Assembly: GCF_000153485.2 (NCBI RefSeq)
Contig: NC_018721.1
Location: 3,286,001 to 3,350,000 of the forward strand
Reading direction: 5' to 3'
DNA: 64,000 nucleotides
Source: Psychroflexus torquis ATCC 700755
GTDB lineage: Bacteria; Bacteroidota; Bacteroidia; Flavobacteriales; Flavobacteriaceae
Of this stretch, positions 13,599 through 26,742 are shown in pieces (the first letter of the stretch is position 1; each line of letters opens with the position of its first letter). A model generated the notes under the pieces. The model was given only the letters and a program-made list of their open reading frames with translations. It ran no database searches and was not told the DNA's origin. Both the position numbers and the translations under genes were made by a program.

Positions 13599-14489
13599 TT
13601 ATTGTTTTACAAATTTGAATGTATTCACTTGATTTCCTGAAGCAACTTTAGCAATATAAAGTCCAGTGCTTAAGCTAGACACATTAACTGAAGCCTTGTC
13701 AGAATTTAAGTCTTGAGTTAAAACTTCTTGACCTAAAACATTATAAAGAGAAACATTGTCTAAGTTAAAACTAGACTGAATAGTTAACTGGCCTGCATTA
13801 TAGAAATAATCTAAGTTTGAAGTATTAAACTCTGTGTTAGAAAGAGTTGATGTAGTTACTTTAAAATCATCTAGAATTAAAGAATATGCATCACTACCAA
13901 TATAATGAATAGCAACATAAATATTTTCTCCTGCAAATCCATCTAAATTAAAAACGAATTCTGTCCATTCTTCAGGTGCAGGTGATTGATTTGGTAGAAT
14001 CACAAAAAAGTCACCAGCTTCAGTACCAGTCGTAGAGATTTCAAGATTAAAAGTTTCAGGACCGAATTCATCAGTTGGTGCTTTTGCCCAAAAGCTAAGA
14101 GTATTCCCAGAGCTACCTAAAGTAATTCGTGGAGTAATTAATCTATCATCATTTGCAGTAGCACCGCCATCTTGACTTGGTACAGCTGCAAAAGCATTGA
14201 TTGTTTTGTCGCCAGTTCTAGCGGACCATGCGTCTTCACTATCAAGAGGTGTAGCTACAGCTGAGGGGTTAAATACAATAAACGACCCAACATATCCACC
14301 ATTTTCAAAATCTGCTCCTTCACCGATTATATACGTCTGTAAACCATCACCATCTATAAGGGTCCAGTCGCCAATATCTTCAATTATAAAATCATCATAG
14401 TCTTCAAAGCTGTCTTCAAAGAGTGTTATTTGAGATTTGCCTACAAAGGAAATCATTGCTAAAATAAATAAAAAAGTAATTTTTTTCAT
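13599..14489 (-). CDS. T9SS-sorted protein with choice-of-anchor J (cleaved-adhesin-like) domain
   Basis: A secreted protein of 296 residues. It has a signal peptide (MKKITFLFILAMISFVGKSQ). A jelly-roll domain typical of choice-of-anchor J / cleaved adhesin follows at about residues 24-210, with FEDSFEDYDDF, WTLIDGDGLQTY, RLITPRI, FWAKAP and IAIHYIG-like strands ending LDDFKV. The type A T9SS sorting tail is at about 230-296 (YNVLGQEVLTQDL, then VSSLSTGLYIAKV and the final FKFVKQ). It would be exported by the type IX system and attached to or released from the cell surface. The adhesion role is inference from the fold family. Confidence 0.88.
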   Translation of the reverse strand: MKKITFLFILAMISFVGKSQITLFEDSFEDYDDFIIEDIGDWTLIDGDGLQTYIIGEGADFENGGYVGSFIVFNPSAVATPLDSEDAWSARTGDKTINAFAAVPSQDGGATANDDRLITPRITLGSSGNTLSFWAKAPTDEFGPETFNLEISTTGTEAGDFFVILPNQSPAPEEWTEFVFNLDGFAGENIYVAIHYIGSDAYSLILDDFKVTTSTLSNTEFNTSNLDYFYNAGQLTIQSSFNLDNVSLYNVLGQEVLTQDLNSDKASVNVSSLSTGLYIAKVASGNQVNTFKFVKQ

Positions 14490-14621: not shown

Positions 14622-14932
14622 ATACCAATTTAGTATTCAAATGTTGGATAAAATCTGTTTATTTTCCACTTATTAATCGTCATAAAATAGAACCGTAACT
14701 ATTGCTATGCTTATATTTTTTTCCTCAACTAAGTAAAAAACATGTGCTGAGCTACGTCGTAGTATAATTCAAATTTTTAATCTCTATTGGGTTTAATTTC
14801 CCGAGGCTTGCCTCGTGTTTTAAGGAAAGTTTGAAAACGGATGGTTTTCATCAATCAAAAACGACCATCTAAATGCCTCGTGGGCTTGCCCCGAGGATTC
14901 TTCACTACAATTTTTAAAAACTAAATTGGTAT
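14622..14932. repeat. MITE-like element A with 13-bp terminal inverted repeats
   Basis: This 311 bp non-coding segment is bounded by perfect inverted 13-mers: ATACCAATTTAGT at 14622-14634 and ACTAAATTGGTAT at 14920-14932. Inside it, 14743-14772 is a 30-mer that is identical at 49460-49489 and 60078-60107, with related flanks. It also holds two nested palindromes (see next entry). A 19-base end sequence at 14614-14632 recurs inverted at 56143-56161. The interval 14490-14621 before it is AT-rich upstream DNA with nothing recognisable. Confidence 0.7.
14800..14896. repeat. pair of REP-like palindromes inside element A
   Basis: Two hairpins face each other: CGAGG-CTTG-CCTCG near 14802-14815, and CCTCG with CGAGG arms near 14876-14896 (CCTCGTGGGCTTGCCCCGAGG). 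They are separated by ~60 bp. The GC-rich stems stand out from the AT-rich surroundings, as in paired REP (BIME-like) units. They differ in sequence from the RAYT-element ends in the island. Confidence 0.55.
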
Positions 14933-14935
14933 TAA

Positions 14936-15085
14936 TGCCTTTTTAAGACATAAAATTCAAGCTTGTTATCTATTGAAAACGGTCTCACAAATAAAAGAGC
15001 CCGTAGCTCATGAGATGAAACTTTTTGAAAAAAAGTTTCATCTTCTCGTGGAGTGCTTCTCAATAAAATCGATGGCTTTTTGTGT
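14936..15085 (+). pseudogene. decayed duplicate of the 5' end of the polyprenyl synthetase gene (left island border)
   Basis: This stretch aligns with 26590-26742, the leader and first ~37 codons of ispB. The segment encoding KTVSQIKEPVAHEM is identical at protein level, starting from the equivalent TTG at 14973. A ~10 bp deletion after the FEKKFHL codons shifts the frame, which ends at a TAA at 15087. The promoter box TACATTTG of the intact copy is degraded to CAAGCTTG here. The fragment marks the left border of the inserted island and indicates insertion or recombination at this locus. Confidence 0.85.
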
Positions 15086-15105: not shown

Positions 15106-15279
15106 CTAATTGAACTTGAGGCTTAGTGCTTTAAAATAAAAGACCTTTTCATCCAAAATGTCTTTTTTTTTAATGAGCATAGAATTAATAATCTTTATAA
15201 GTCCTTTTTCCTTGTCTTTATCTAGTTGGTTTACAATATTAATTATCTGTGAAAAGGATATTTTTTCTAAGAGCTTCAT
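15106..15279 (-). pseudogene. short ORF, probable C-terminal remnant of an XRE-type regulator (copy 1)
   Basis: A 57-codon frame beginning MKLLEKISFSQIINIVNQLD. Its first ~35 codons are nearly identical to the minus-strand ORF at 21622-21774, then the two diverge through frame-altering changes. The charged helical pattern (QLDKDKEKGLIKIINSML) resembles the C-terminal helices of Bacteroidetes XRE regulators, but there is no helix-turn-helix left. The identification is weak; the duplication itself is certain. Confidence 0.35.
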
Positions 15280-15372
15280 AAATCCTGCAATCCAGAAGGC
15301 TATCTAGAGACTAGTAGTTCAGAAATAGTTAAGTATATTTAGTAGTATAAAGACCACTTAGGAAACATTAGA

Positions 15373-16404
15373 TTGAGTTATAAAGATGGAGCAAACGGTG
15401 TGGAAATCGTAGAAGAAAACAATTACTATCCCTTTGGTCTAAAACACAAGGGTTACAATAATGTTGTGAGTTCTAATGGGAACAGTGCAGCGCAGAAGTT
15501 TGGATTTCGCGGTAAAGAATTAAATGAAGAACTTGGATTAGAATGGCACGATTTTGATGCGAGGAATTATGATGTGAGTTTAGGTCGGTGGATGAATCTT
15601 GACCCACTTGCAGAATTAATGAGAAGACACTCGCCATATAACTACGCCTTTGACAATCCCATCTACTTTACAGACCCTGATGGGATGTATCCAATGTCAC
15701 CAGCTGCTATGAAATCTACAGCTACAGAAGTGTATGATTATAGTTCTGGGAATGGAAGTGGGTCATTGAAGAGTGGTGGAGGTAGTGATGATATAGTTTT
15801 TAATTCTATAGATAAAAAAGGGAATAAAACAGAGTTAGGGAGAATTGTAACTGATGAGTTTGACCAAGAAATAAATATTGACCAAAATTTAATCCCTTTT
15901 GATATACCTGAAAACTACGACCCTGTAAATGTAGATTTGAATGCAAGTGAAATAGCAAGTACTGCGCTTGAAAATACAGGAATACAAGCATTTTCTTTAG
16001 ATCTTTCTGGTGAAGCTGCATTTAAAGTTGGTGTTCAACTTGAAATTAGTTTAATTGTTATAGTTGCAGGAAAGAATAAAGGTGATTGGGGAGTTGCTCT
16101 ACAAGGAAATGGGTTATTAGGACTTGAAGGAAGTTTTACAGGTAGTGCTTCGGCTTATTGGCCAATATCTAATGGAGACCTATCTTTATATAAATTAAGA
16201 GGCCCTGAGTATGGTGTTCAGGGAAGCGGTTTTGGTGTAGCAGGCTCTTACTTTGAGGGGTTTGAATTTACAACTTCTTATCCTTTTGCAAATAGAGTTT
16301 ATAGAGGAGCTTCATTAGGCGGTTCAAAGGGTATTCCTGAATTGGGCGGAAGTGGTTCTGCGTATATTGGAGTTAGTGAATTCTTATACAGGTCAAAAAA
16401 ATAA
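15373..16404 (+). CDS. orphan Rhs core fragment with variable C-terminal tip 1
   Basis: The frame holds the end of an RHS-repeat-associated core. NNYYPFGLKHKGYNN is near residue 16, RGKELNEELGLEWHDFDARNYD near 50, GRWMNLDPLAE near 75 and HSPYNYAFDNPIYFTDPDGMYP near 88. A unique glycine-rich tip follows from about residue 140 (SFTGSASAYWPISNGDL, GVAGSYFEGFEF). The TTG at 15373 is only the first possible start. Homology continues upstream to about 15289, broken by two in-frame TAG codons at 15340-15345 where cassette 21868 has TAC CAG. It is therefore probably a silent tip. Full-length Rhs proteins deliver such tips as contact-dependent toxins; the activity of this tip is unknown. Confidence 0.7.
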   Translation: MSYKDGANGVEIVEENNYYPFGLKHKGYNNVVSSNGNSAAQKFGFRGKELNEELGLEWHDFDARNYDVSLGRWMNLDPLAELMRRHSPYNYAFDNPIYFTDPDGMYPMSPAAMKSTATEVYDYSSGNGSGSLKSGGGSDDIVFNSIDKKGNKTELGRIVTDEFDQEINIDQNLIPFDIPENYDPVNVDLNASEIASTALENTGIQAFSLDLSGEAAFKVGVQLEISLIVIVAGKNKGDWGVALQGNGLLGLEGSFTGSASAYWPISNGDLSLYKLRGPEYGVQGSGFGVAGSYFEGFEFTTSYPFANRVYRGASLGGSKGIPELGGSGSAYIGVSEFLYRSKK

Positions 16405-16412
16405 ATAATGAT

Positions 16413-16877
16413 ATGAATAAATATTTTATTTTTCTAATGGTGCTTTTCTGTTCTTGCACAAAATATAAAGGAAATCAAGACAGTCTTAAATATGATATTA
16501 TAAAAATTGAATTTGATGGATATTCAAAGGACTATGAAACAAAAGAAAAGATTGCCATCTCTATTACAGATTCTACTGAAGTTAGGAATCTGAATAATTT
16601 AAAAAACACCTCACAACGAAAATGGTTTGCTAATGTTAAAGGCACAGAATTTATAATTCGATTAGTCTATACAGATTCTAGAACAGGAGAACAGTTATTG
16701 GTTTGTATCTTAAAAAGTATAGATTCTACGCCAACTATAGAATATGGTTCAGGAACTCTATTTGATGGAAGCTATAAAAACGACAAATTCTTTAATTATG
16801 TTGCTTCTATAATCAATTTAGAAGATATAAAGCAATACAATGGTAATTTAAGCCAAGAGGAGTACGAGAAACTTTAA
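16413..16877 (+). CDS. putative immunity lipoprotein for Rhs tip 1
   Basis: A 154-residue protein with a lipoprotein signal: hydrophobic MNKYFIFLMVLFCSC with a lipobox ending at the Cys near residue 15. A polar domain without recognisable motif follows. It starts 8 bp after the rhs tip stop, the position in which polymorphic-toxin immunity genes are found. A lipid-anchored periplasmic immunity protein would suit a toxin acting in the periplasm or membrane. Function is inferred from position only. Confidence 0.6.
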   Translation: MNKYFIFLMVLFCSCTKYKGNQDSLKYDIIKIEFDGYSKDYETKEKIAISITDSTEVRNLNNLKNTSQRKWFANVKGTEFIIRLVYTDSRTGEQLLVCILKSIDSTPTIEYGSGTLFDGSYKNDKFFNYVASIINLEDIKQYNGNLSQEEYEKL

Positions 16878-16919
16878 TTAACCCAGGCTATAAAAGTTAT
16901 CTAACTTGAATGGCATTTT

Positions 16920-17133
16920 TTACATAATATTCTGGAGCTTTGTCTGCTTCAAGAATGCATCAAGGAGAGCGAAAACGTGTTGTTATTCGTTCTCTTTTAG
17001 TTTTTGGATATCAAGAACACGATTAACAATACTTGTTTCTAAAAGTGTATCTGTAGAGCCTACAATATAATCCAAAGAAACTTCCAGAGCTTCGGCTAAC
17101 TGTGTAGCCATCTCAATAGATGGTTTTACTTCC
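16920..17133 (-). pseudogene. XRE-family regulator remnant, cut by RAYT copy 1
   Basis: Reading the minus strand from 17133, the frame gives EVKPSIEMATQLAEALEVSL, followed by a TDTLL / VLDIQKLKENE segment. This is typical of the end of the helix-turn-helix and the linker of a Bacteroidetes XRE regulator. A TAA at 16983 interrupts it, and the same frame then continues with QHVFALLDAFLKQTKLQNIM to a TAA at 16920. The 5' half is missing because RAYT element 1 starts exactly here. The apparent N-terminus of the longer ORF reaching 17180 is REP sequence, not protein. Confidence 0.7.
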
Positions 17134-17827
17134 CCCCTGCTGGTGCGAGCGTAATTAGTCGGAACGGCTAGCGCGAGCATCTTGCTCGTGCCCTCAAAGA
17201 AAAGTAAACTGATTTTTATCTATTTTTACTAAAAAGAGTTGATGAGCAGAAAGTATAAATTTGCAGATAAATCTGGTGCGTACTTTATAAGCTTTGCTAC
17301 TGTGAACTGGATAGATGTATTTACTAGAGACGCTTACTTTTGGTGTATTATAGAATCGTTAGATTTTTGCAGAAAAAATAAAGGCATGGAGCTTTATGGT
17401 TATTGTATCATGCCAAGCCACGTTCATTTAATTTTTCGGTCAGCATTAAACGATCCTTCAGGATTAATAAGAGATTTTAAAGGGTTTACTTCAAAGAAAA
17501 TAGTTAAAATCATTGATGATAATCCACATGAAAGCCGAAAAGAATGGATGCTCTGGATGTTTGAACGTGCTGGCAAAAAAAAAATAGCAATGTTGCCAAT
17601 AAACAGTTTTGGCAGCAGAATAATAAACCAATAGAGATTTGGTCATTAAACGTATTTGAGCAGAAACTAAAATACATACACAACAATCCTGTTGTATCAG
17701 GCTTTGTGACCAACCCAATAGATTGGAAATTTAGCAGTGCAAGAAATTATGGTAATGATGACCATACCATTTTGGAAATTGATATAAATTAGATAGTGTG
17801 TACGAGCGAGACGCTCGCATCAGCTGG
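17134..17827 (+). mobile_element. RAYT element copy 1 (IS200-like, REP-bounded)
   Basis: The unit begins CCCCTGCTGGTGCGAGCGT and ends with the inverted counterpart (ACGCTCGCATCAGCTGG). Hairpins are present at both ends, for example GCGAGCA-TCT-TGCTCGT at the left and GAGCG-AGA-CGCTC at the right. The same unit occurs at 20387, 24010 and 25490 with the same boundaries. It splits an XRE remnant on its left from an Rhs core on its right. Confidence 0.85.
17242..17792 (+). pseudogene. REP-associated tyrosine transposase, frameshifted copy 1
   Basis: A Y1-type HUH transposase of the TnpA_REP/RAYT group that would nick and rejoin single-stranded REP hairpins. The HUH motif MPSHVHLIF is intact. A run of ten A residues at 17575-17584, against eight in the intact copies, shifts the frame and removes the C-terminal KYIHDNPV segment with the catalytic tyrosine. 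This copy is therefore inactive unless slippage restores it. I use the ATG at 17242; the preceding TTG would add one residue. Confidence 0.88.
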
Positions 17828-18907
17828 AGGCTATATAAACCTTTCAACCCAGAAGGCTATTTAGAGCCCAGTAGTTCAGAAATATTTAAGTATATTTATA
17901 AATATAACTTAGGAAACATTAGATTGAGTTATAAAGATGGAGCAAACGGTGTGGAAATCGTAGAAGAAAACAATTACTATCCTTTTGGGCTCAAGCATGA
18001 AGGGTACAATGGTTCTATAAATGGGACTGACCATAAATATGGTTTTGGTGGTAAAGAAGAACAGGATGAACTTGGGTTGGACTGGATAGATATTACAGCT
18101 AGGAATTATGATGCGAGTTTGGGGCGATGGATGAATATTGACCCACTTGCCGAAATCATGAGAAGGCACTCGCCATATAACTACGCATTTGACAATCCTA
18201 TCTTCTTTACAGATCCTGATGGGATGTATCCAATGTCACCAGTTGCTATGCAATCTACAGCTACAGAAGTGTATGATTATACTTTTGGGGATGATAGAGG
18301 GGCATCAAAGAGTGGTGGAGGTAGTGATAGCAAAACTACAGACTATCAGGCTAAGTTTACACAAATAGGCGAGGATCTTGCCAATATGGATACTAGCCTT
18401 GATGGAGGAGATGGAAATTGTTGTCCAATTAGCATTCCAATCGACGCCAACGCAACTAGTTTTAGTGAGGATGTGGGACTAAGTGATATGGGGCAAAGCG
18501 GGGGGATGTGGGATTTAAATTCCGATGGATTATTTCAGAAAAATGAAGCTGATAATTGGTGGTTAACTGCTAAGGGTGTTGATGTGTCTGTGAATAATTC
18601 TAATATTGATTGGTCAGGATTAACAGTGCCCAAAGGAAAAGGGAGAGGTGATATATTTGCTATAAGTACTACAGATGCGTTTATAAATCTGCCTTATGAA
18701 ACAGCTTCAACTTACGGAGGGACATCATTTTCTGTACTTAGTTCTTCTAAAGTGACGGTGTTAGACCAAAAGTATCACTACAAATATAGGAGTAATAATT
18801 CCATGGAAAATATAATGAGAAACGTAGCAACTTGGCTAGGCAAACCTTCTGGACAGGGTACAGATTTTATGATTAGGTATAAATACCCAATAATTAATAT
18901 CAAATGA
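17798..18907 (+). CDS. orphan Rhs core fragment with variable C-terminal tip 2
   Basis: The Rhs part starts near 17846 with NPEGYLEPSSSEIFKYIYKY. It continues through NNYYPFGLKHEGYNG, GGKEEQDELGLDWIDI, GRWMNIDPLAEIM and SPYNYAFDNPIFFTDPDGM. A linker shared with the 21868 cassette ends in GDGNCCP, after which the tip is unique. It includes GMWDLNSDGLFQKNEADNWW near 228, IFAISTTDAFINLP, and a C-terminal HYKYRSNNSMENIMRN and GKPSGQGTDFMIRY. The GTG at 17798 lies in the RAYT right end, so the start is accidental or borrowed from the element. Tip activity is not recognised. The stop overlaps the next gene by 4 bp. Confidence 0.7.
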   Translation: MYERDARISWRLYKPFNPEGYLEPSSSEIFKYIYKYNLGNIRLSYKDGANGVEIVEENNYYPFGLKHEGYNGSINGTDHKYGFGGKEEQDELGLDWIDITARNYDASLGRWMNIDPLAEIMRRHSPYNYAFDNPIFFTDPDGMYPMSPVAMQSTATEVYDYTFGDDRGASKSGGGSDSKTTDYQAKFTQIGEDLANMDTSLDGGDGNCCPISIPIDANATSFSEDVGLSDMGQSGGMWDLNSDGLFQKNEADNWWLTAKGVDVSVNNSNIDWSGLTVPKGKGRGDIFAISTTDAFINLPYETASTYGGTSFSVLSSSKVTVLDQKYHYKYRSNNSMENIMRNVATWLGKPSGQGTDFMIRYKYPIINIK

Positions 18908-19338
18908 AAAAGTGGATAATCTTATTAGTTGTGTTGCTTTTAGGAATGATAGCACTATTTTCTCTACAGAAAGATGAGCAGGATTTGGGTGATAACTACT
19001 ATTATCTGCCATTATATGAAGCAATAGATGTAGGTCTTCCAGATGGGGCAATTGTTTACAAATCAACACAGAAATATTCATTTGATGAAGTGAAAATTAA
19101 GGGCGATGTTGTTAGTATTGATTGCAATGAAAAATTTATCATAGTAATTAGAAAGCCTAAAGAAGTCAAGTATGAGGAAATATATACCAAAAGTAGTTTA
19201 GGGACAGATTCCTTAGAATACTTTATTGTAGTGAAAAAGTCAGATTTGGTAAAAGGTCCTTTTTCAAAACAGAAGTATCTTGGAAAAAGGAAAGAATTAG
19301 GAGTGTCGAAGGATTTAAAATTAGATTTTGAGGAATAA
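18904..19338 (+). CDS. putative membrane-anchored immunity protein for Rhs tip 2
   Basis: A 144-residue protein with an N-terminal membrane helix (KKWIILLVVLLLGMIALFSL) and a soluble domain rich in beta-type segments. It overlaps the toxin-tip gene by ATGA, which implies tight translational coupling, as expected for a toxin and its immunity protein. No family recognised. An inner-membrane anchor with a periplasmic domain would protect against a periplasmic or membrane-acting toxin; that is inference. Confidence 0.65.
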   Translation: MKKWIILLVVLLLGMIALFSLQKDEQDLGDNYYYLPLYEAIDVGLPDGAIVYKSTQKYSFDEVKIKGDVVSIDCNEKFIIVIRKPKEVKYEEIYTKSSLGTDSLEYFIVVKKSDLVKGPFSKQKYLGKRKELGVSKDLKLDFEE

Positions 19339-19358
19339 AATTAGTAGCCTTGGAATAA

Positions 19359-19802
19359 GGCGTTCTTTTTTGTTTTGAAGAAGACCAAAGCGGGGGTGGT
19401 CTTCCTGGTTGGACAGGAGATGCTAATCAAGCAGCGAGTGCTTTCGGGATTGGTAATGGAGTTAAAGATGCTCTTATTGACGGTGTCGTTAAATTAGAAA
19501 GAGGTACGACCAAAATTAATAATGTTAGTAGACTTCGAGTGTTAGGGAAAACTGCAGGATACTCAAAATATGTAAAAGGTCTTGGTGTTGTTGGAGCTGG
19601 CATATCAACAACGTATTCGGTTGCTAATGCAGGTAATTACTATTACAATGGAGGGACAGATTGGCAAGTTGGAACGAAAGCTTCCCTTGATATTATAATG
19701 ACTGGAGTAGGGTTTTTAGGTCCAATTGGTTTAGGTGTAAGCGCAACTTACTTTATAATTGATGCCTCAGGAGGCTTTAGAGATTTTGGAAAAATAGAAT
19801 AG
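19359..19802 (+). pseudogene. Rhs toxin tip 3 without its Rhs core
   Basis: The frame is open from a TAA at 19356 to a TAG at 19800. It reads DQSGGGLPGWTGDANQAASA, later GVVGAGISTTYSVANAGNYY and MTGVGFLGPIGLGVSATYF. The glycine-rich hydrophobic end looks like the membrane-active C-terminal domains seen behind Bacteroidetes Rhs cores. There is no Rhs core and no convincing start; the GTG at 19539 would remove 60 residues. The coding start point near 19383 follows immediately on junk sequence, so this is a detached tip. Confidence 0.6.
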
Positions 19803-20189
19803 ATGAATTTATTAAAGACATTGTATTGTAAGTACTACAATTTTCAGGTTAAGTTTGGTAATAAAGATATAGCACCTTTTAGTTCAATGCTAATTATAGC
19901 ATTTACGATAATGTTATATTATTTCAGTGCTTTTTTTCTAACCATATTATTTATTCCAAAAGGAATTATTAACACCAAAATATTTGTTTACGCTTCTATC
20001 AGTCTGTTACTCGCATTAGTGTTGGTGTTGTACTTTGTGTTAGTTCACAAAGCAAAATACAAAGTTGTTTTGAAGGAGTATGAGAATAAAAAAGGTGTGT
20101 TTTTAGCAGCTATATTTCCTCTATTAGCATTTCTACTTTTTAATGCAAGTTGGATATTAAAAATGCTTCAAAATCAAGGAAAATTCTAA
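19803..20189 (+). CDS. putative integral-membrane immunity protein for Rhs tip 3
   Basis: A 128-residue protein with three membrane helices: near residues 29-52 (MLIIAFTIMLYYFSAFFLTI), 60-82 and 103-118. It starts directly at the base after the tip 3 stop. A polytopic immunity partner agrees with the hydrophobic, glycine-rich character of tip 3, as for pore-forming toxins and their membrane immunity proteins. No database family recognised; the role is positional inference. Confidence 0.6.
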   Translation: MNLLKTLYCKYYNFQVKFGNKDIAPFSSMLIIAFTIMLYYFSAFFLTILFIPKGIINTKIFVYASISLLLALVLVLYFVLVHKAKYKVVLKEYENKKGVFLAAIFPLLAFLLFNASWILKMLQNQGKF

Positions 20190-20218
20190 TATGAAAGCCA
20201 GAGGCTAATTTGTTGTTT

Positions 20219-20374
20219 AGGGGGTATACAGGATATGAGCACATGCCAGAATTTGGTTTAATAAATATGAATGGTCGTTTGTACGACCCAAAGGTAGGGC
20301 ATATGCTAAGTGCTGATAATTTTGTGCAAGCAAAAACCAGAAGAAAACGGTTCAGTAGAAAGATTTAATTAAAG
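20219..20374 (+). pseudogene. Rhs/YD-repeat core fragment of a second subtype
   Basis: The frame reads RGYTGYEHMPEFGLINMNGR, then LYDPKVGHMLSADNFVQ. This is the other common Bacteroidetes Rhs core signature (GHE..NMNGRLYDP..G), different from the NNYYPFG-type core in the neighbouring cassettes. After NFVQ the sequence diverges to TREENGSVERFN and stops at 20372, 12 bp before RAYT copy 2. It is a detached fragment of a different rhs gene. Confidence 0.75.
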
Positions 20375-20386
20375 AGTAAAAAACCC

Positions 20387-21078
20387 CCTGCTGGTGCGAG
20401 TGTAATTAGCCGGAACGGCTAGCGCGAGCATCATGCTCGTGCCCTCAAAGAAAAGTAAACTGATTTTTATCTATTTTTACTAAAAAGAGTTGATGAGCAG
20501 GAAGTATAAATTTGCAGATAAATCTGGTGCGTACTTTATAAGCTTTGCTACTGTGAACTGGATAGATGTATTTACTAGAGACGCTTATTTTTGGTGTATT
20601 ATAGAATCGTTAGATTTTTGCAGAAAAAATAAAGGCATGGAGCTTTATGGTTATTGTATCATGCCAAGCCACGTTCATTTAATTTTTCGGTCAGCATTAA
20701 ACGATCCTTCAGGATTAATAAGAGATTTTAAAGGGTTTACTTCAAAGAAAATGGTTAAAATCATTGATGATAATCCACAAGAAAGCCGAAAAGAATGGAT
20801 GCTCTGGATGTTTGAACATGCTGGCAAAAAAAATAGCAATGTTGCCAATAAACAGTTTTGGCAGCAGAATAATAAACCAATAGAGATTTGGTCATTAAAC
20901 GTATTTGAGCAGAAACTAAAATACATACACGACAATCCTGTTGTATCAGGCTTTGTGACCAACCCAATAGATTGGAAATTTAGCAGTGCAAGAAATTATG
21001 GTAATGATGACCATACCATTTTGGAAATTGATATAAATTAGATAGTGTGTACGAGCGAGACGCTCGCACCAGCTGGGG
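20387..21078 (+). mobile_element. RAYT element copy 2
   Basis: The same ~693 bp unit as at 17134, with left end CCCCTGCTGGTGCGAGTGT and right end ...CGCTCGCACCAGCTGGGG. It separates an Rhs core fragment on the left from the last codons of a toxin tip on the right, so it probably landed in, or mediated deletion within, a former rhs gene. Confidence 0.87.
20493..21041 (+). CDS. REP-associated tyrosine transposase (RAYT), intact copy 2
   Basis: A 182-residue Y1/HUH endonuclease of the TnpA_REP type. It has DVFTRDAYFWCIIESL near residue 25, the HUH motif MPSHVHLIF near 57, GFTSKKMVKIIDDNP near 79, KQFWQQNNKP near 120, KYIHDNPV with the catalytic Tyr near 144, and the WKFSSARNY ending typical of RAYTs. 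From family knowledge these enzymes cleave and move REP hairpins, and REP-like hairpins bound this element. It has eight A residues at the homopolymer where copy 1 has ten, keeping the frame open. Confidence 0.93.
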   Translation: MSRKYKFADKSGAYFISFATVNWIDVFTRDAYFWCIIESLDFCRKNKGMELYGYCIMPSHVHLIFRSALNDPSGLIRDFKGFTSKKMVKIIDDNPQESRKEWMLWMFEHAGKKNSNVANKQFWQQNNKPIEIWSLNVFEQKLKYIHDNPVVSGFVTNPIDWKFSSARNYGNDDHTILEIDIN

Positions 21079-21139
21079 GGTAGTAGAACGAACTAATGCT
21101 TATCAATTTTATAAAGTAAAACGAATTCCTAAAAATTAA
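21079..21139 (+). pseudogene. last codons of a Rhs toxin tip (tip 4), truncated by RAYT copy 2
   Basis: Immediately after the RAYT right end the frame reads VVERTNAYQFYKVKRIPKN and stops at 21137, seven bases before the next gene's ATG. Its position in front of a small lipoprotein gene fits the end of a toxin tip. It is too short to identify by itself. Confidence 0.4.
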
Positions 21140-21145
21140 TTGGAC

Positions 21146-21580
21146 ATGAAAAAGCATAAACTTATTATAATAATCGTAATCTTTATTAATTTGTATTCTT
21201 GTAAAAAAGAAACATATGTTTTTGATGAAAATTTACTAATCGGTAATTGGTCAAAAACTGACACTAATGATTATCAAGAATATTATTTTGATAAGGAAAA
21301 CATGTATGCATATAGCCTTAAATCAGGAAGTACTTTACATTACATTTTTAAAATGAAAGAAGATAGTCTTTATCTTTCGTTAGTATATCAAGAAGTTAAG
21401 GAGGACTTTAAATTTTATGATAAAATAATAAAAATTGATTCAATAAAAATGAAATTAGAAAATAGAATTTTTCTTAAGGTTACAAAAAATAATACTTTAA
21501 GAATGTTTATCAATAAAGAAATATCATCTAACGATTATTTTAAGGCTTGTGTGCAAAGGAGTGACGTATTGAGTAAGTAA
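21146..21580 (+). CDS. putative immunity lipoprotein for Rhs tip 4
   Basis: The ATG at 21146 gives a lipoprotein signal (KLIIIIVIFINLYSC, lipobox Cys near residue 21) followed by a 120-residue domain. The domain begins FDENLLIGNWSKTD and resembles lipocalin-like small Bacteroidetes lipoproteins (LIGNW motif). It follows a truncated tip in the usual immunity position, so it is probably an orphan immunity gene kept after its toxin was lost. Alternatively it is an ordinary lipocalin-like lipoprotein. Confidence 0.6.
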   Translation: MKKHKLIIIIVIFINLYSCKKETYVFDENLLIGNWSKTDTNDYQEYYFDKENMYAYSLKSGSTLHYIFKMKEDSLYLSLVYQEVKEDFKFYDKIIKIDSIKMKLENRIFLKVTKNNTLRMFINKEISSNDYFKACVQRSDVLSK

Positions 21581-21621
21581 ACAAAATAAGCCACCTTTAA
21601 CGATGTGGTTTTTTTATGCTT

Positions 21622-21774
21622 TTAGAATTTAGCCTTTCCATCCAACAAATCCTTTATGCATTTTTTAGTTAGCATAGAATTAATAATCTTTATAAGTCCT
21701 TTTTCCTTGTCTTCATCTAGTTGGTTTACAATATTAATTATCTGCGAAAAGGATATTTTTTCTAAGAGCTTCAT
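21622..21774 (-). pseudogene. short ORF, probable XRE-type C-terminal remnant (copy 2)
   Basis: Fifty codons, MKLLEKISFSQIINIVNQLD at the start, duplicated at 15106-15279. In both places it lies on the strand opposite to, and just before, an Rhs core cassette, so the repeat is ~200 bp of shared upstream DNA (about 21670-21870 against 15180-15390). Similar to the C-terminal helices of XRE regulators but without DNA-binding domain. Weak identification. Confidence 0.35.
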
Positions 21775-21867
21775 AAATCCTGCAATCCAGAAGGCTATCT
21801 AGAGCCCAGTAGTTCAGAAATATTTAAGTATATTTACCAGTATAAAGACCACTTAGGAAACATTAGA

Positions 21868-23055
21868 TTGAGTTATAAAGATGGGGCAAACGGTGTGGAA
21901 ATCGTAGAAGAAAACAATTACTATCCCTTTGGCCTCAAGCATGAAGGGTACAATGGTTCTATAAATGGGACTGACCATAAATATGGCTTTGGTGGCAAAG
22001 AAGAAAACAAAGAACTTGACTTAGAATGGCTCGATTTTGGGGCTCGTAATTACGACCCTTCTATAGGACGTTGGATGAATCTTGACCCATTGGCGGAGTT
22101 AATGAGAAGATACTCGCCATATAATTACGCCTTTGACAATTCTATCTACTTTACAGATCCTGATGGGATGTATCCAATGTCACCAGTTGCTATGAAATCT
22201 ACAGCTACAGAAGTGTATGATTATACTTCTGGGAATGAAAGAGGGGCATCAAAGAGTGGTGGAGGTAATGATAGCAAAACTACAGACTATCAGGCTAAGT
22301 TTACACAAATAGGCGAGGATCTTGCCAATATGGATACTAGCCTTGATGGAGGAGATGGAAATTGTTGTCCACAAGACGTGGTCAACCCTGATAATCCAAT
22401 TGAACTTGATACGGTGGTAATAAACGTATCGAAGAACAATTCCTACGGGGCAGACTCAGATTATAGTGGTGGTCTTGAAAGTTACAAATCACGTTACGGT
22501 TTCGATGGGGACTATGACAATGTATTTTCACAGTATTTTACTAAATGGGGCAGCTCTTATATTCCAATCGCTTACAGGAATGATCTAAACTCGATAGATG
22601 CTACTGGTTTCGCCGAAAACTTTTCTGCTGGATGGAATAACTGGGATCCTGATGGAATGGGTAATTTCTTGATGAAAGCAGTATCATATTCTATAGGAGG
22701 CACCATTTTAGGCGTGGCAGGAACCGGAATTATTGGAGGTTATTCAACAGGCGGGATATTGGCCTCATCATCAAGTCAAAGTGTAGGCTCTTTCACTCAA
22801 GGAATTATGATTCGAGGCGGAGTTAGACGAATGGTTTTTAGAAATTCGCTTGGGCAGTTTGCTCGAGGAACTGGTATTCGTGAGACTTCAAGAATGTATT
22901 CTCAACGTATGGGTCTTAACGCTTTAGGTCAAGCGACAAGAACTACTGCAACCATAATACCACCAAATTGGGGAGCAGCAGCAAGATGGATAGTTGGAGG
23001 AGGCTTATCAGGAGCTACAGGCTACTATTTATATAAAGAAAGTTTAAAAAAGTGA
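21868..23055 (+). CDS. orphan Rhs core fragment with variable C-terminal tip 5
   Basis: Rhs homology starts at 21784 (NPEGYLEPSSSEIFKYIYQY, then KDHLGNIRLSYKDG), but no ATG or GTG precedes the TTG at 21868, so the cassette lacks a real start. It has the core motifs NNYYPFGLKHEGYNG, RNYDPSIGRWMNLDPLAE and YNYAFDNSIYFTDPDGM, then the same linker as tip 2 up to GDGNCCP. The unique tip has a hydrophobic glycine-rich region (KAVSYSIGGTILGVAGTGII) and a basic stretch with RRMVFRNSLGQFARGTG. Activity is not recognised; a membrane-acting toxin is possible. Confidence 0.7.
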   Translation: MSYKDGANGVEIVEENNYYPFGLKHEGYNGSINGTDHKYGFGGKEENKELDLEWLDFGARNYDPSIGRWMNLDPLAELMRRYSPYNYAFDNSIYFTDPDGMYPMSPVAMKSTATEVYDYTSGNERGASKSGGGNDSKTTDYQAKFTQIGEDLANMDTSLDGGDGNCCPQDVVNPDNPIELDTVVINVSKNNSYGADSDYSGGLESYKSRYGFDGDYDNVFSQYFTKWGSSYIPIAYRNDLNSIDATGFAENFSAGWNNWDPDGMGNFLMKAVSYSIGGTILGVAGTGIIGGYSTGGILASSSSQSVGSFTQGIMIRGGVRRMVFRNSLGQFARGTGIRETSRMYSQRMGLNALGQATRTTATIIPPNWGAAARWIVGGGLSGATGYYLYKESLKK

Positions 23056-23057
23056 TT

Positions 23058-23546
23058 ATGGGTATATTGAGAAGTTTAATGAACGTTTTTTCAGCTGGAG
23101 AACCAAGAAATCCAAACGGGTTTGTAAAAAAATTCATAAAAGATTCAAAGGAAGAAAGAGCACAGCTTGAAATGATATATAAAAGAGATGTCATTTTGCA
23201 AGTGGATTCTTTGAGATTTGTACCATCTTGGTTTAAGATTACAGATAAGACACAAGAAAGTTATAAGAACGGCTATGTAATATTTTTCACTAAGGATGTT
23301 GAAGATTTCCGAAAAAACTTCGCAAAAAAGTATGCGCAATTTTCCGAAAAACACGATTTAGTCAAGATAGAAGAAACACACAATGACCAGGCAGTAGTCA
23401 CTATCGGTAAATTTTTAGTAAGTGCCGACAGTCATTTGACTTTGGCTAATGAAATGAAGAATTTTATTGATAAATTCTATTCATTCAAGGAAATTAATCC
23501 TTCTATATTATTCAACATAAGATACTTGTCTGGTGTTCCAGGATAA
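23058..23546 (+). CDS. putative cytoplasmic immunity protein for Rhs tip 5
   Basis: A soluble protein of 162 residues with no signal peptide or membrane helix. Motifs include KRDVILQVDSLRFVPSWFKI and NGYVIFFTKDVEDFRKNF. I use the ATG at 23058; a GTG at 23052 would overlap the toxin-tip stop. It lies directly behind the toxin tip, and a cytoplasmic immunity protein would fit a toxin that acts inside the cell. No family recognised. Confidence 0.6.
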   Translation: MGILRSLMNVFSAGEPRNPNGFVKKFIKDSKEERAQLEMIYKRDVILQVDSLRFVPSWFKITDKTQESYKNGYVIFFTKDVEDFRKNFAKKYAQFSEKHDLVKIEETHNDQAVVTIGKFLVSADSHLTLANEMKNFIDKFYSFKEINPSILFNIRYLSGVPG

Positions 23547-24009
23547 ATTTATACTGCTACCTCGCCAAACTCAGCAACTTCTACTGTTTGTGCTTTTCTG
23601 TAACAAGTGTGTTCACTTATTTTAAAATCGCTACTTGGGTGGTTTTTTTGCGTAAGCCTTTTAAGCTTTGTAGTCTCGAAGCAGGGCATCAACCACATAC
23701 AAGTTTTCCCAAAAACAGAATTGTTTAAAATAATAATTTTCTTAATTAAATTAGACAGTATTATGATACGAAGTAAATTTTCACTACGGCAAGTAATGAA
23801 AAGTTCATTTTCGTCGAATTCTATAAAAATTAAGGTTTTATAAATTTAACATTGAGTATCTCCTTCGTATAAATAAATGTCAGTATTTTTATAAGAAACT
23901 ATGTAATGAAATTTTTTTTCAAAAAAATCCCTGGTTATAACCTTTAGGAAACACTTATCGTATAGCGATTATTGGTATTTTACTTCTTATTGCTTTACCC
24001 AACTTAATG
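23547..24009. other. 463 bp without a clear gene in the island
   Basis: No convincing gene. A 78-codon frame at 23607 has unlikely composition. At about 23949-24009 a frame reads GNTYRIAIIGILLLIALPNL before running into RAYT copy 3, which looks like the broken end of a membrane protein, perhaps another immunity remnant. Confidence 0.4.
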
Positions 24010-24703
24010 CCCCTGCTGGTACGAGCGTAATTAGCCGGAGCGGCTAGCGCGAGCATCTTGCTCGTGCCCTCAAAGAAAAGTAAACTGATTTTTATCTATT
24101 TTTACTAAAAAGAGTTGATGAGCAGAAAGTATAAATTTGCAGATAAATCAGGTGCGTACTTTATAAGCTTTGCTACTGTGAACTGGATAGACGTATTTAC
24201 TAGAGACGCTTATTTTTGGTGTATTATAGAATCGTTAGATTTTTGCAGAAAAAATAAAGGCATGGAGCTTTATGGTTATTGTATCATGCCAAGCCACGTT
24301 CATTTAATTTTTCGGTCAGCATTAAACGATCCTTCAGGATTAATAAGAGATTTTAAAGGGTTTACTTCAAAGAAAATGGTTAAAATCATTGATGATAATC
24401 CACATGAAAGCCGAAAAGAATGGATGCTCTGGATGTTTGAACGTGCTGGCAAAAAAAATAGCAATGTTGCCAATAAACAGTTTTGGCAGCAGAATAATAA
24501 ACCAAAAGAGATTTGGTCATTAAACATATTTGAGCAGAAACTAAAATACATACACGACAATCCTGTTGTATCAGGCTTTGTGACCAACCCAATAGATTGG
24601 AAATTTAGCAGTGCAAGAAATTATGGTAATGATGACCATACCATTTTGGAAATTGATATAAATTAGGTAGTGTGTACGAGCGAGACGCTCGCACCAGCTG
24701 GGG
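24010..24703 (+). mobile_element. RAYT element copy 3
   Basis: The same unit as at 17134, 20387 and 25490. The left end is CCCCTGCTGGTACGAGCGT (one change) and the right end ...CGCTCGCACCAGCTGGGG. It joins a broken membrane-protein frame on the left to toxin tip 6 on the right. Confidence 0.87.
24118..24666 (+). CDS. REP-associated tyrosine transposase (RAYT), intact copy 3
   Basis: 182 residues, differing from copy 2 at only a handful of positions (for example H/Q in DDNPHESRK and K/I in NNKPKEIWS). HUH motif MPSHVHLIF and the KYIHDNPV tyrosine segment are both intact, and the homopolymer has eight A residues. With copy 2 it could supply transposase for all four elements. The high identity among copies implies recent amplification in this island. 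Confidence 0.93.
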   Translation: MSRKYKFADKSGAYFISFATVNWIDVFTRDAYFWCIIESLDFCRKNKGMELYGYCIMPSHVHLIFRSALNDPSGLIRDFKGFTSKKMVKIIDDNPHESRKEWMLWMFERAGKKNSNVANKQFWQQNNKPKEIWSLNIFEQKLKYIHDNPVVSGFVTNPIDWKFSSARNYGNDDHTILEIDIN

Positions 24704-24708
24704 ATTTT

Positions 24709-24924
24709 ATGTTTAATTTAGCTAAAAAGAGTGTAATGAAAAATTATTCCACTCCATTATTAAGAAAATATATTGGCTTTACAGGTCAAAGGAAAATTTT
24801 AAATAGTGAAATAGGAAAATCCCTAAGAAGTATTTATAAATATGATCATCAAGTGATAAATACAAAAAACGTTTATAAAACATCAGACTTCATTTTGAAA
24901 TATGGATCCAAACTTTCTAAATAG
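24709..24924 (+). CDS. detached Rhs toxin tip 6
   Basis: The frame emerges from the RAYT right end; the first ATG inside unique sequence is at 24709, giving 71 residues. It has KNYSTPLLRKYIGFTGQRKI and ends KTSDFILKYGSKLSK. It is basic, without Rhs core, and overlaps the following gene by 23 bases. Position and size suit a toxin domain cut off from its carrier by RAYT copy 3. No catalytic motif recognised. Confidence 0.45.
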   Translation: MFNLAKKSVMKNYSTPLLRKYIGFTGQRKILNSEIGKSLRSIYKYDHQVINTKNVYKTSDFILKYGSKLSK

Positions 24925-25393
24925 AAATAATATAGATGAAAACTTTAAAAGTACTGTAGATCCATTAATTTCTGAGCTGAAAACAGAATATTCTAAACAT
25001 GAGTTAAAAAGATTAGAATTTAATAAAATTACTCAGCTGATTAATGATCTCGAAAATTTTAAACCTAAAAGTCAGGTTAGGGAGTCTAAAATAGATTTAA
25101 TAAAATATATTGCTTATTTTATTAAAACCCCTATCAATGATTTTGATGATATACAAATATCAAAACTTCAAGCAAAATATATATTACCAACCATAAACAA
25201 TCATTTGCATAAGCGTGGCTACACAGCTAAATGGATATGGCTTTGGGGGTTATTGTTTTTGCTTCCAATTGATATTATATTATGGCTTTTTATTGGTGAA
25301 TACTATTTTTATATACCTATAGTTTCAATACCTTATATATTCAAACAAGTTCGAGAAGAAATAAAAGCAAAAAAGAAAAATAAGTTATGGTAA
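24902..25393 (+). CDS. putative membrane immunity protein for tip 6
   Basis: 163 residues: a helical, charged N-terminal domain (about 1-115), then two membrane helices near residues 118-150 (IWLWGLLFLLPIDIILWLFI and YYFYIPIVSIPYIF), and a basic tail KAKKKNKLW. It overlaps the tip 6 frame, consistent with a coupled toxin-immunity pair. Family unknown. The 96 bp that follow up to RAYT copy 4 hold nothing recognisable. Confidence 0.55.
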   Translation: MDPNFLNRNNIDENFKSTVDPLISELKTEYSKHELKRLEFNKITQLINDLENFKPKSQVRESKIDLIKYIAYFIKTPINDFDDIQISKLQAKYILPTINNHLHKRGYTAKWIWLWGLLFLLPIDIILWLFIGEYYFYIPIVSIPYIFKQVREEIKAKKKNKLW

Positions 25394-25489: not shown

Positions 25490-26182
25490 CCCCTGCTGGT
25501 GCGAGCGTGATTAACCGTAACGGCTAGCGCGAGCATCTTGCTCGTGCCCTCAAAGAAAAGTAAACTGATTTTTATCTATTTTTACTAAAAAGAGTTGATG
25601 AGTAGAAAGTATAAATTTGCAGATAAATCTGGTGCGTACTTTATAAGCTTTGCTACTGTAAACTGGATAGATGTATTTGCTAGAGACGCTTATTTTGGTG
25701 TATTATAGAATCGTTAGATTTTTTCAGAAAAAATAAAGGCATGGAGCTTTATGGTTATTGTATCATGCCAAGCCATGTTCATTTAATTTTTCGGTCAGCA
25801 TTAAACGATCCTTCAGGATTAATAAGAGATTTTAAAGGGTTTACTTCAAAGAAAATAGTTAAAATCATTGATGATAATCCACATGAAAGCAGAAAAGAAT
25901 GGATGCTCTGGATGTTTGAACGTGCTGGCAAAAAAAATAGCAATGTTGCCAATAAACAGTTTTGGCAGCAGAATAATAAACCAATAGAGATTTGGTCATT
26001 AAACATATTTGAGCAGAAACTAAAATACATACACGACAAACCTGTTGTATCAGGCTTTGTGACCAACCCAATAGATTGGAAATTTAGCAGTGCAAGAAAT
26101 TATGGTAATGATGACCATACCATTTTGGAAATTGATATAAATTAGATAGTGTGTACGAGCGAGACGCTCGCACCAGCTGGGG
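25490..26182 (+). mobile_element. RAYT element copy 4
   Basis: A fourth unit with the same ends; the left REP has several differences (GTGATTAACCGTAACGGC). It joins unassigned DNA to a primase-gene fragment. Its transposase gene is broken. Confidence 0.86.
25598..26145 (+). pseudogene. REP-associated tyrosine transposase, frameshifted copy 4
   Basis: One T is missing from the run at about 25691-25697 (TATTTTGG where the other copies have TATTTTTGG). This shifts the frame near codon 32, so the N-terminal part is separated from the HUH and tyrosine motifs that remain intact downstream from the internal ATG at 25741. A nearby missense change (TTTTTCAG for TTTTGCAG) adds to the decay. Probably inactive. 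Confidence 0.88.
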
Positions 26183-26565
26183 ACAATCAAATAGAGAAAT
26201 TAGTTAGAAAGGTTGCAGAACGTATAGAAATAGGAACATCAATAGTTAGAAGAATATTACAATAATTAACCAACGAATTAGAAACTTATCGCCTATCACA
26301 GCTTGACCAAGAAGATGCAAACGAATTTACCATAAGAGAATTAATAAGCAAAGAACTGCAAGCCACAGAGGTATTTTTAAAGAAAGATAATTTATTACAG
26401 CTAACCAATGACCCAATTGGAAATAGCGGAGTAATTGGAGAAGAATACAACAGACAAATCATGGTCTTAATATTTACTTCACGTAAAGCAAAGGATCCTT
26501 TGTATCAGCTTGAGAAGTTACCATTCTTCGAAGTTTGCAACTTCGAACTATACCAGCTAAAGTAA
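26182..26565 (+). pseudogene. fragment of a mobile-element DNA primase-like gene
   Basis: The frame reads KLVRKVAERIEIGTSIVRR, is interrupted by a TAA at 26263, and continues with LTNELETYRLSQLDQ and FTIRELISKELQATEVF. It then gives NSGVIGEEYNRQIMVLIFTS. This matches my memory of the central region (ELETYR...GIVGEE.NR) of CHC2/toprim primase-like proteins of Bacteroidetes mobile elements. Both ends are missing. A small perfect hairpin (TTCGAAGTT-TGC-AACTTCGAA) lies at 26529-26549. The source was probably an integrative element at this site. Confidence 0.5.
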
Positions 26566-26589
26566 AGCTGTTTTCCTATCATAGTTTTC

Positions 26590-26742
26590 ATGTCTTTTTA
26601 AGACATAAAACTCTACATTTGTAACGTCTTGAAAACTGTCTCACAAATAAAAGAGCCCGTAGCTCATGAGATGGAACTTTTTGAAAAAAAGTTCCATCTT
26701 TTCATGTCTTCTCGTGTAGCCCTTCTCAATAAAATCACTCAC
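26590..26742 (+). repeat. right copy of the island-flanking direct repeat (ispB leader and 5' end)
   Basis: This is the leader and first ~38 codons of the intact polyprenyl synthetase gene, which align with the decayed copy at 14936-15085. Both begin ATG(T/C)CTTTTTAAGACATAAAA and share the KTVSQIKEPVAHEM coding region. The two differ at roughly one base in seven to ten plus a 10 bp deletion, so the duplication is old or the copies came from different strains. Confidence 0.85.
26614..26621 (+). promoter_or_regulatory. candidate -7 box (TACATTTG) for ispB
   Basis: Perfect TAnnTTTG match ending 7 bases before the TTG start at 26629. In the decayed left copy the same position is mutated. Confidence 0.45.

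Follow-up and report, generated by a model that had tools for sequence, protein, structure and literature searches.

A relict array of Rhs toxin tips in Psychroflexus torquis, probably left by an integrative element

The window, a stretch of 64,000 nucleotides of the Psychroflexus torquis chromosome, contains a string of Rhs toxin tips and small putative immunity genes. This string is probably a relict array, formed when an integrative element repeatedly displaced the C-terminus of an Rhs toxin. Arrays made by C-terminal displacement are a known kind of locus; what is new is a clue to their formation. A gene remnant at the right edge, called orf510 here, is proposed on the basis of sequence comparison to be a trace of the tip-swapping element.

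Organization of the array

All six C-terminal tips of the preliminary description lie at the positions given there, but two of them are mere stubs. Tip 4 has 19 residues and tip 6 at most 72, so that the array consists of four substantial tips and two stubs. A small open reading frame (ORF) is found directly 3' of every tip (6/6), as had been described, and its role in immunity is assigned by position only. The three tips at 15373, 17798 and 21868 indeed retain the end of the Rhs core, which matches TIGR03696 (Rhs_assc_core) with 58, 55 and 53 bits, respectively. The features are as follows, in window positions.

14929..15070, + strand: left edge, where the 5' end of the polyprenyl synthetase gene and the DNA upstream of it recur in a decayed copy (83-91% repeats of 26584-26700)
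15106..15279, - strand: antisense ORF fragment, repeat partner 21622-21774 (294-bp repeat, 94%; P. gondwanensis match, 78%)
15286..15783, + strand: Rhs core end 1, its upstream part with two TAG stops (TIGR03696 and congener Rhs match)
15784..16404, + strand: tip 1 (ORF)
16413..16877, + strand: imm 1, lipoprotein-like (intact ORF; lipobox judged by eye)
16983..17131, - strand: antisense HTH_3 fragment, interrupted by Y1 copy 1 (20.7 bits, below the cut-off of 23)
17131..17833, + strand: Y1 transposase element copy 1, frameshifted (ORF list, repeat comparison)
17840..18421, + strand: Rhs core end 2 (TIGR03696 and congener Rhs match)
18422..18907, + strand: tip 2 (relatives sit on three long Rhs frames)
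18904..19338, + strand: imm 2, bitopic (DUF3997 at 7.7e-4, below cut-off)
19359..19802, + strand: tip 3, without core (weak Bfe1 match, E=0.76)
19803..20189, + strand: imm 3, polytopic, Bfi1-like (NF053699, E=1.4e-6, below cut-off)
20210..20368, + strand: incomplete core end, belonging to a second type of Rhs (TIGR03696 26 bits, below cut-off; 44-56% to other Rhs ends)
20384..21082, + strand: Y1 transposase element copy 2, 183-aa ORF intact (PF01797)
21080..21139, + strand: tip 4 stub (sequence)
21140..21580, + strand: imm 4, lipoprotein-like (ORF)
21622..21774, - strand: antisense ORF fragment (no Pfam match)
21781..22365, + strand: Rhs core end 3 (TIGR03696 and congener Rhs match)
22366..23055, + strand: tip 5 (ORF)
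23052..23546, + strand: imm 5, soluble (ORF)
24010..24707, + strand: Y1 transposase element copy 3, ORF intact (repeat comparison)
24706..24924, + strand: tip 6 fragment (ORF)
24902..25393, + strand: imm 6, with membrane segments (28% to the gene adjoining a congener core end, locus L019)
25490..26186, + strand: Y1 transposase element copy 4, broken ORF (ORF list, repeat comparison)
26179..26511, + strand: orf510 remnant at the right edge, with one TAA inside (53% over residues 57-168, E=2.9e-28)

The earlier reading had overlooked the core end of the second type, the four Y1 copies, the three antisense fragments, the duplicated left edge and the orf510 remnant. A target-site duplication was considered as a simple left border and rejected, the left edge being a decayed copy (83-91%) of the start of a gene. 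The DNA flanking the antisense HTH_3 fragment is 82% identical to Rhs loci in a congener (genome G010).

The immunity ORFs are intact in 6/6 cases. Decay is visible in the other parts: two of the six tips are stubs, only two of the four Y1 elements keep an unbroken ORF, and a stop interrupts the orf510 remnant. This pattern would be expected of an orphan-immunity island, kept for protection against the Rhs toxins of neighbors in the manner of the AID/rAID islands of gut Bacteroidales, in which, according to the part of the source consulted, orphan immunity genes protect the bacteria (PMC12247911). Such a role is possible, though on the doubtful side. Short, recent ORFs may remain open by chance, and the closest relative, genome G022, has none of the queried genes in its assembled part. 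As a present-day function, orphan immunity is compatible with a displacement array. The tips are taken to be silent, and if the locus still has a function, it is most likely protection by the putative immunity genes.

Core ends and repeats

DNA identity among the three core ends is 82-100% over about 480 bp, a resemblance that exceeds chance, yet they lead into three different tips. All three begin at the motif NPEGY (residue 1143-1144 of a 1493-aa congener Rhs). This start matches none of the 37 element/core junctions picked by hand in relatives, and duplication could explain it. Copies 1 and 3 have the 294-bp repeat in common, and thus they may simply be duplicates of one truncated core. The only match to the DNA preceding the core ends is in P. 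gondwanensis. The core-end HMM was based on 21 sequences, those that a script filter retained from 26 loci and the window.

The repeats offer another route to the array, namely homologous recombination through the core and the Y1 copies alone, with orf510 elements as unrelated passengers. Besides the repeated core ends, homology is available in four near-identical copies (97-99%) of the ~700-bp Y1 (IS200-like) transposase element, and truncated, unrelated genes abut the Y1 borders on both sides. Among the Y1 loci of the named genomes, 7 of 77 have a core end within 10 kb, always upstream and on the same strand. Homologous recombination is also the published model, as far as the consulted part of Jackson et al. 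2009 (PMC2935791) goes. Recombination as the sole cause nevertheless seems rather unlikely, because it leaves two properties of the orf510 relatives unexplained: the proximity of orf510-recombinase units to core ends on the same strand (24/28 genomes) and the sharp borders at the same codons across different genera.

Tip and immunity proteins

The preliminary description recognized no family among the tips and their partners, and profile searches leave them so. In Pfam and NCBIfam no scanned tip or immunity protein reaches the cut-off, which is attained by the Rhs core domain alone; the tip 6 ORF was compared with Pfam only and the tip 4 stub was left out. The best family hint for an immunity protein is the resemblance of imm 3 to the Bfi1 immunity family NF053699 (28 bits, cut-off 100). 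PADLOC returned nothing for the locus. Searches of solved structures with tip 2, tip 5 and imm 3 gave nothing useful, and single-protein structure predictions were poor (mean pLDDT of 30.6 for tip 2 and 40.7 for imm 5).

At E<=1e-5, neither tip 1 nor tip 5 has a relative in the 394 other Flavobacteriales genomes. Tip 2 has five matches outside its own genome in the same set, three of which end open frames of 2202, 2276 and 2338 codons. Since its relatives terminate long open frames in other genomes, tip 2 is a real exchangeable tip. Relatives of imm 2 adjoin those of tip 2 in 2/5 loci. A tblastn search of 184 loci with 11 tip and immunity proteins (tip 4 omitted) gave two weak matches, both in locus L019.

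Absence of an rhs body and the chromosomal site

The P. torquis genome is a single contig of 4.32 Mb and is 99.98% complete. When an rhs body was sought in the whole genome with the 1493-aa congener Rhs, the only matches were three core ends of ~140 residues, all in this locus, corresponding to residues 1143-1285 of the query three times over. The genome scan with TIGR03696 adds only a partial core end in a 177-codon frame (G000:353355-353507) and a sub-threshold piece at window position 20219. PF05593 is a weak test because even the full-length Rhs proteins of congeners give hardly any match to it, and the search relied on TIGR03696 and the 1493-aa protein instead. An rhs gene elsewhere in the genome is rejected on this evidence. 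The absence of a full-length rhs gene, reported earlier for the window, thus extends to the single-contig genome.

The array had been interpreted as a donor store, from which a full-length rhs gene at another place in the genome could draw new tips. This interpretation had been tied to the presence of such a gene in the genome or in relatives. Congeners do carry one (a 1493-aa ORF with 74% core identity in G020 and one of 1524 aa in G005) and combine full-length rhs genes with orphan tips, but in P. torquis itself the recipient is missing, which makes a donor store very improbable.

The site between rlmN and the polyprenyl synthetase gene is bare in six congeners, out of 10 congener loci that have both flanking genes. 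In the closest relative, G022, an island occupies this position as well, with Y1 copies of 97-98%; none of the 11 window tip and immunity proteins used as queries turned up in the part of it that is assembled. The absent rhs body, the bare site in congeners and the turnover of cargo in G022 point to a relict of C-terminal displacement, broken up by the four Y1 copies, rather than a donor store.

The proposed orf510 element in relatives

Genes related to orf510 occur in at least 29 of 395 genomes sampled from a larger group. Neighborhoods were counted for 45 of at least 48 copies, three of which lay outside the regions examined. These 45 copies belong to 28 genomes, and tyrosine recombinases are located downstream in 26 of them. 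Rhs core ends lie within 8 kb of orf510 on the same strand for 38/45 copies (24/28 genomes) and never on the opposite strand; the four genomes without a nearby core end are G172, G407, G150 and G252. At 13 orf510 loci the nearest upstream core end is part of an open frame of 588-2196 codons. The order tip, immunity gene, Y1, orf510, as in the window, is found in one of the 28 genomes (G338).

The borders of the element coincide with conserved codons. Of eight tandem element repeats tested, six start on core codons, at NYYPFG (G020, G338, G107), KYNGKE (G155, G426) or ETGMYDYG (G347), and two do not. Core ends that differ from one another are joined to the same element end at an identical codon in each of G020, G338, G107, G042, G351, G155, G367 and G010.

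In the first recombinase, R-H-R is conserved in 40/40 rows and H and Y in 38/40. XerD/XerC models fit the G020 recombinase better than integron integrase models, all being below cut-off. Orf510 matches no Pfam family and has only sub-threshold NCBIfam matches; its longer plasmid relatives match the CHC2 zinc finger and Toprim. The plasmid sample consists of 7 of 27 records, picked by hand away from clinical isolates, one of them without annotation. The element order is the same in 6/6 annotated records, and one element is bordered at VENN of a haemagglutinin-type gene. An antisense HTH gene follows the immunity gene in G020 and in all six annotated plasmid records, and the window has its sub-threshold HTH_3 fragment at the corresponding place, after imm 1.

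PICI-type phage satellites carry an integrase, a divergent CI-like repressor and a primase-type gene. The proposed element resembles them in these three components.

Comparison with known systems

The comparisons below refer to the consulted parts of the cited papers. Jackson et al. 2009 (PMC2935791) describe strings of orphan cassettes, each consisting of core end, tip and immunity gene, behind an intact rhs gene, and know of no integrase for the displacement. The window shares the orphan cassettes, which have neither a start nor a core body, with different tips on the same core end and a small ORF for each tip. The intact upstream rhs gene, however, is absent from the P. torquis locus and genome, and the orf510 relatives do carry recombinases. 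The Rhs loci of the bee-gut bacteria Snodgrassella and Gilliamella (Steele et al. 2017, PMC5727410) are likewise arrays of orphan tips. Rhs-associated integrases are noted there and their role is left open, and the parts consulted describe neither codon-level borders nor tandem element units, unlike the relatives considered here.

In the sequential effector displacement of the Vibrio cholerae T6SS (Kirchberger et al. 2017, PMC5361080), a new effector-immunity module is likewise inserted and the old immunity genes are retained as an array. These arrays hold immunity genes only, unlike the window, and the authors state that there is no evidence for integrase action. The rAID systems (PMC12247911) resemble the window in their co-oriented immunity-type genes; they have their own tyrosine recombinase and no tips, whereas the window has tips and no recombinase relative was found in it. 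Another large array within Bacteroidota, with 26 orphan tips, is that of Ornithobacterium hominis (PMC13183296), which retains a large RHS gene, unlike P. torquis; the displacement mechanism is only cited there.

Proposed origin of the array

The architecture and borders of the relatives suggest that the element integrates and that it made this array. The ancestral element would have encoded an antisense CI-like HTH protein, the helicase- or primase-type orf510 protein and one or two tyrosine recombinases, and its cargo would have been an Rhs core end with a tip and an immunity gene. By inserting in frame at conserved core codons, it would give a long rhs gene a new tip and shift the former core end, tip and immunity gene downstream. 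Repeated insertions would produce an array. The rhs body and the recombinases would have been lost afterwards, and the Y1 copies may then have spread or recombined through the array, leaving stubs, tips and intact immunity ORFs.

The window itself has orf510 only as a remnant, and tblastn with both G020 recombinases found no tyrosine recombinase in the P. torquis loci searched. This, together with the NPEGY starts and the rarity of the window's gene order, counts against an origin from the element, as do the four genomes with no core end near orf510 and the two tandem repeats that start off the core codons. Neither excised circles nor sister strains with an empty target gene were observed.

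On balance we lean towards regarding the window as the fossil of a class of integrative elements that specialize in polymorphic toxins, a class that is widespread and apparently undescribed. Each member would combine one or two Xer-like recombinases with a CI-like repressor and a CHC2/toprim primase- or helicase-type protein. Integration would take place at the conserved codons marking the variable end (NYYPFG, KYNGKE, ETGMYDYG or VDPLA in Rhs; VENN in a haemagglutinin-type gene), re-arming the toxin in frame with another tip and immunity gene and shelving the old pair downstream.

Implications

The exchange of Rhs tips and the line-ups of orphan tips have hitherto been ascribed to homologous recombination and a hypothetical circular intermediate. 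Among the relatives of the island, in several genera as well as on plasmids, the borders of recombinase units coincide with conserved codons of the toxin. If the proposal is true, the element would supply the integrase and the circular intermediate that C-terminal displacement has lacked. It would also suggest a reason for the position of conserved motifs, NYYPFG and VENN among them, at the edge of the variable end. The mechanism of tip exchange thereby becomes a question that can be addressed experimentally.

Anatomy of the island

An island of 11.6 kb, situated between rlmN and a polyprenyl synthetase gene, contains the ends of Rhs cores, tips (the variable C-terminal ends of Rhs toxins) and small ORFs. 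Its components and flanking genes, in window positions, are:

12473-13519: rlmN, left flanking gene
13599-14489: Por_Secre_tail gene between rlmN and the island, unrelated to the island
15373, 17798 and 21868: three Rhs core ends with tips
19359: tip lacking a core
20210-20368: partial core end of a second Rhs type
about 21080: tip stub of 19 residues
24706: tip fragment
26179-26511: remnant of orf510, a putative helicase- or primase-type gene
26629-27606: polyprenyl synthetase gene, right flanking gene

The preliminary description had counted at least six tips, each with a small gene, three of them retaining the end of the Rhs core. The three core ends are borne out and six small ORFs (candidate immunity genes imm1-imm6) follow the tips, but two of the six tips are the stub and the fragment. 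At its left border (14929-15070) the island has a degenerate second copy of the beginning of the polyprenyl synthetase gene (26584-26737).

Ten Psychroflexus loci containing both flanking genes were compared. The gap between the genes is about 30 bases or less in six (G004, G025, G013, G001, G008, G016), and 0.8-2.9 kb of other DNA is present in four (G020, G005, G021, G003). In the closest relative, P. gondwanensis, this site is likewise occupied by an island, with Y1 transposase copies at 97-98%. A contig break interrupts that island, and none of 11 window tip and immunity proteins queried was found in its assembled part.

Of 394 other Flavobacteriales genomes, five contain a relative of tip 2; three of these relatives form the ends of frames of 2202-2338 codons and two are in short frames, and imm2 relatives adjoin them at two of the five loci. 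Tips 1 and 5 have no relatives at E ≤ 1e-5 in the 394 genomes. The likeness of imm3 to Bfi1 immunity proteins is below the cut-off.

Absence of an rhs body

The island had been interpreted as a donor store for an rhs gene elsewhere in the P. torquis genome, which was searched as one contig of 4,321,832 bases (99.98% complete). Rhs core DNA and protein searches each found the same three places, all in the island. The Rhs_assc_core profile TIGR03696 detected the three island core ends, a below-cut-off match to the piece of the second Rhs type (window 20219) and a partial core end at genome positions 353355-353507, in a 177-codon frame. A full-length Rhs protein (1493 aa) from the congener G020 matched only with residues 1144-1282, 1143-1283 and 1144-1285, at the three known places; this search is judged to have worked because the query recovered full-length or long relatives in congeners. 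Since no search of this genome revealed a recipient rhs gene, the donor-store reading is refuted for it.

A second orphan core end with a tip, of another Rhs type, lies outside the window near transposase-like ORFs (G000:C1:353113-353643; L188 8113-8643, minus strand).

The orf510 unit

The intact counterpart of the orf510 remnant is in the G020 Rhs locus, within a 6.3-kb unit present in two tandem copies (99.2% identity). The unit consists of a core end from NYYPFG, a tip, an immunity ORF, an antisense HTH gene, orf510 and two Phage_integrase proteins. A fixed end sequence adjoins AACTACTATCCCTTTGG (NYYPFG codons) of the following core end. The final core end, a different one, sits with its tip downstream of the tandem units, which may have pushed the pair there.

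At E ≤ 1e-20, orf510 is found in at least 29 of 395 Flavobacteriales genomes, P. torquis included. Among 45 copies in the 28 other genomes, recombinases are behind orf510 in 26 genomes. A same-strand core end is within 8 kb of 38 copies (24 genomes), and none is on the opposite strand within that distance; four genomes (G172, G407, G150, G252) have no core end near orf510. The core end closest upstream is part of a long open frame (588-2196 codons) at 13 loci. Catalytic residues of the first recombinase are conserved in 38-40 of 40 rows, and the second recombinase is degenerate. The congener G010 (L190-L195) carries some 35 Rhs core ends; most fall into two clusters, and orf510-recombinase units are interspersed. 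No Rhs core ends accompany the tandem units of orf510 and recombinase at locus L249 (G172); these units repeat a short secreted-type gene instead, and another toxin family may be the target there.

In 37 hand-picked junctions the borders cluster at NYYPFG, KYNGKE, ETG-YDYG, VDPLA and FG. Several genomes have a single element end that adjoins different core ends. Tandem repeats start on core codons in six of eight tested cases. The exceptions are L249 and L243, although the L243 junction itself is SYYPFG.

Relatives of orf510 are also present on 27 plasmid records, seven of which were read for gene order. All six annotated ones have a toxin-type gene, a small gene, an antisense HTH gene, a CHC2/toprim protein and a tyrosine recombinase, in this order. 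The toxin is Rhs in the Aureispira and Aureibacter plasmids, where units repeat with identical protein accessions, and a haemagglutinin-repeat protein in Enterobacter sp. JBIWA003, where the repeat starts at the VENN codons, the mark of the CdiA variable end. The Paraburkholderia sp. PREW-6R plasmid (L281) has the same order adjoining a filamentous-haemagglutinin gene; next come an orphan with the annotation ADP-ribosyltransferase family protein and then another unit, 81% alike.

The Y1 transposase element

Cassettes of the island are separated by an element of ~700 bp that encodes a Y1 (IS200-like) transposase, presumably RAYT-like. It is present in four nearly identical copies, two of them with an intact transposase ORF. 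Within the genome, copies at 97-100% are confined to the island, with a further match of 71% at 230 kb. The element is also associated with Rhs in its own right. A core end is within 10 kb of Y1, always upstream on the same strand, in 7 of 77 loci from named genomes (kept out of 129), and in Flavobacterium restrictum (L148) a truncated core end also directly follows the element. Several genera have a Y1 transposase behind a tip-immunity pair of Rhs type and in the same orientation (L131, L144, L148, L165, L172, L173, L181). At the same chromosomal site in P. gondwanensis (L088 12100-15297) Y1 elements are nested and fused, some with internal deletions.

Relation of the island to the proposed orf510 element

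Orphan-tip arrays are already known (PMC5727410, PMC2935791, PMC13183296). Kirchberger 2017 (PMC5361080) states that there is no evidence of an integrase, and Steele 2017 (PMC5727410) mentions integrases associated with Rhs without assigning them a role. Searches of the open-licence literature turned up no account of an element that swaps tips at set codons.

Of the element, the window retains the orf510 remnant. A fragment with a sub-threshold HTH match lies antisense behind imm1, and the core ends, presumably displaced, have one border in common, which duplication of a single truncated core could also explain. Against the link, no recombinase was found in the window by a search of the P. torquis loci, the common border NPEGY is absent from the 37 junctions of relatives, and G338 is the one genome of 28 that repeats the window's order immunity-Y1-orf510. 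The sequence preceding NPEGY matches P. gondwanensis only. On this balance, the link of the island to the orf510-recombinase element, while not proven, is likely.
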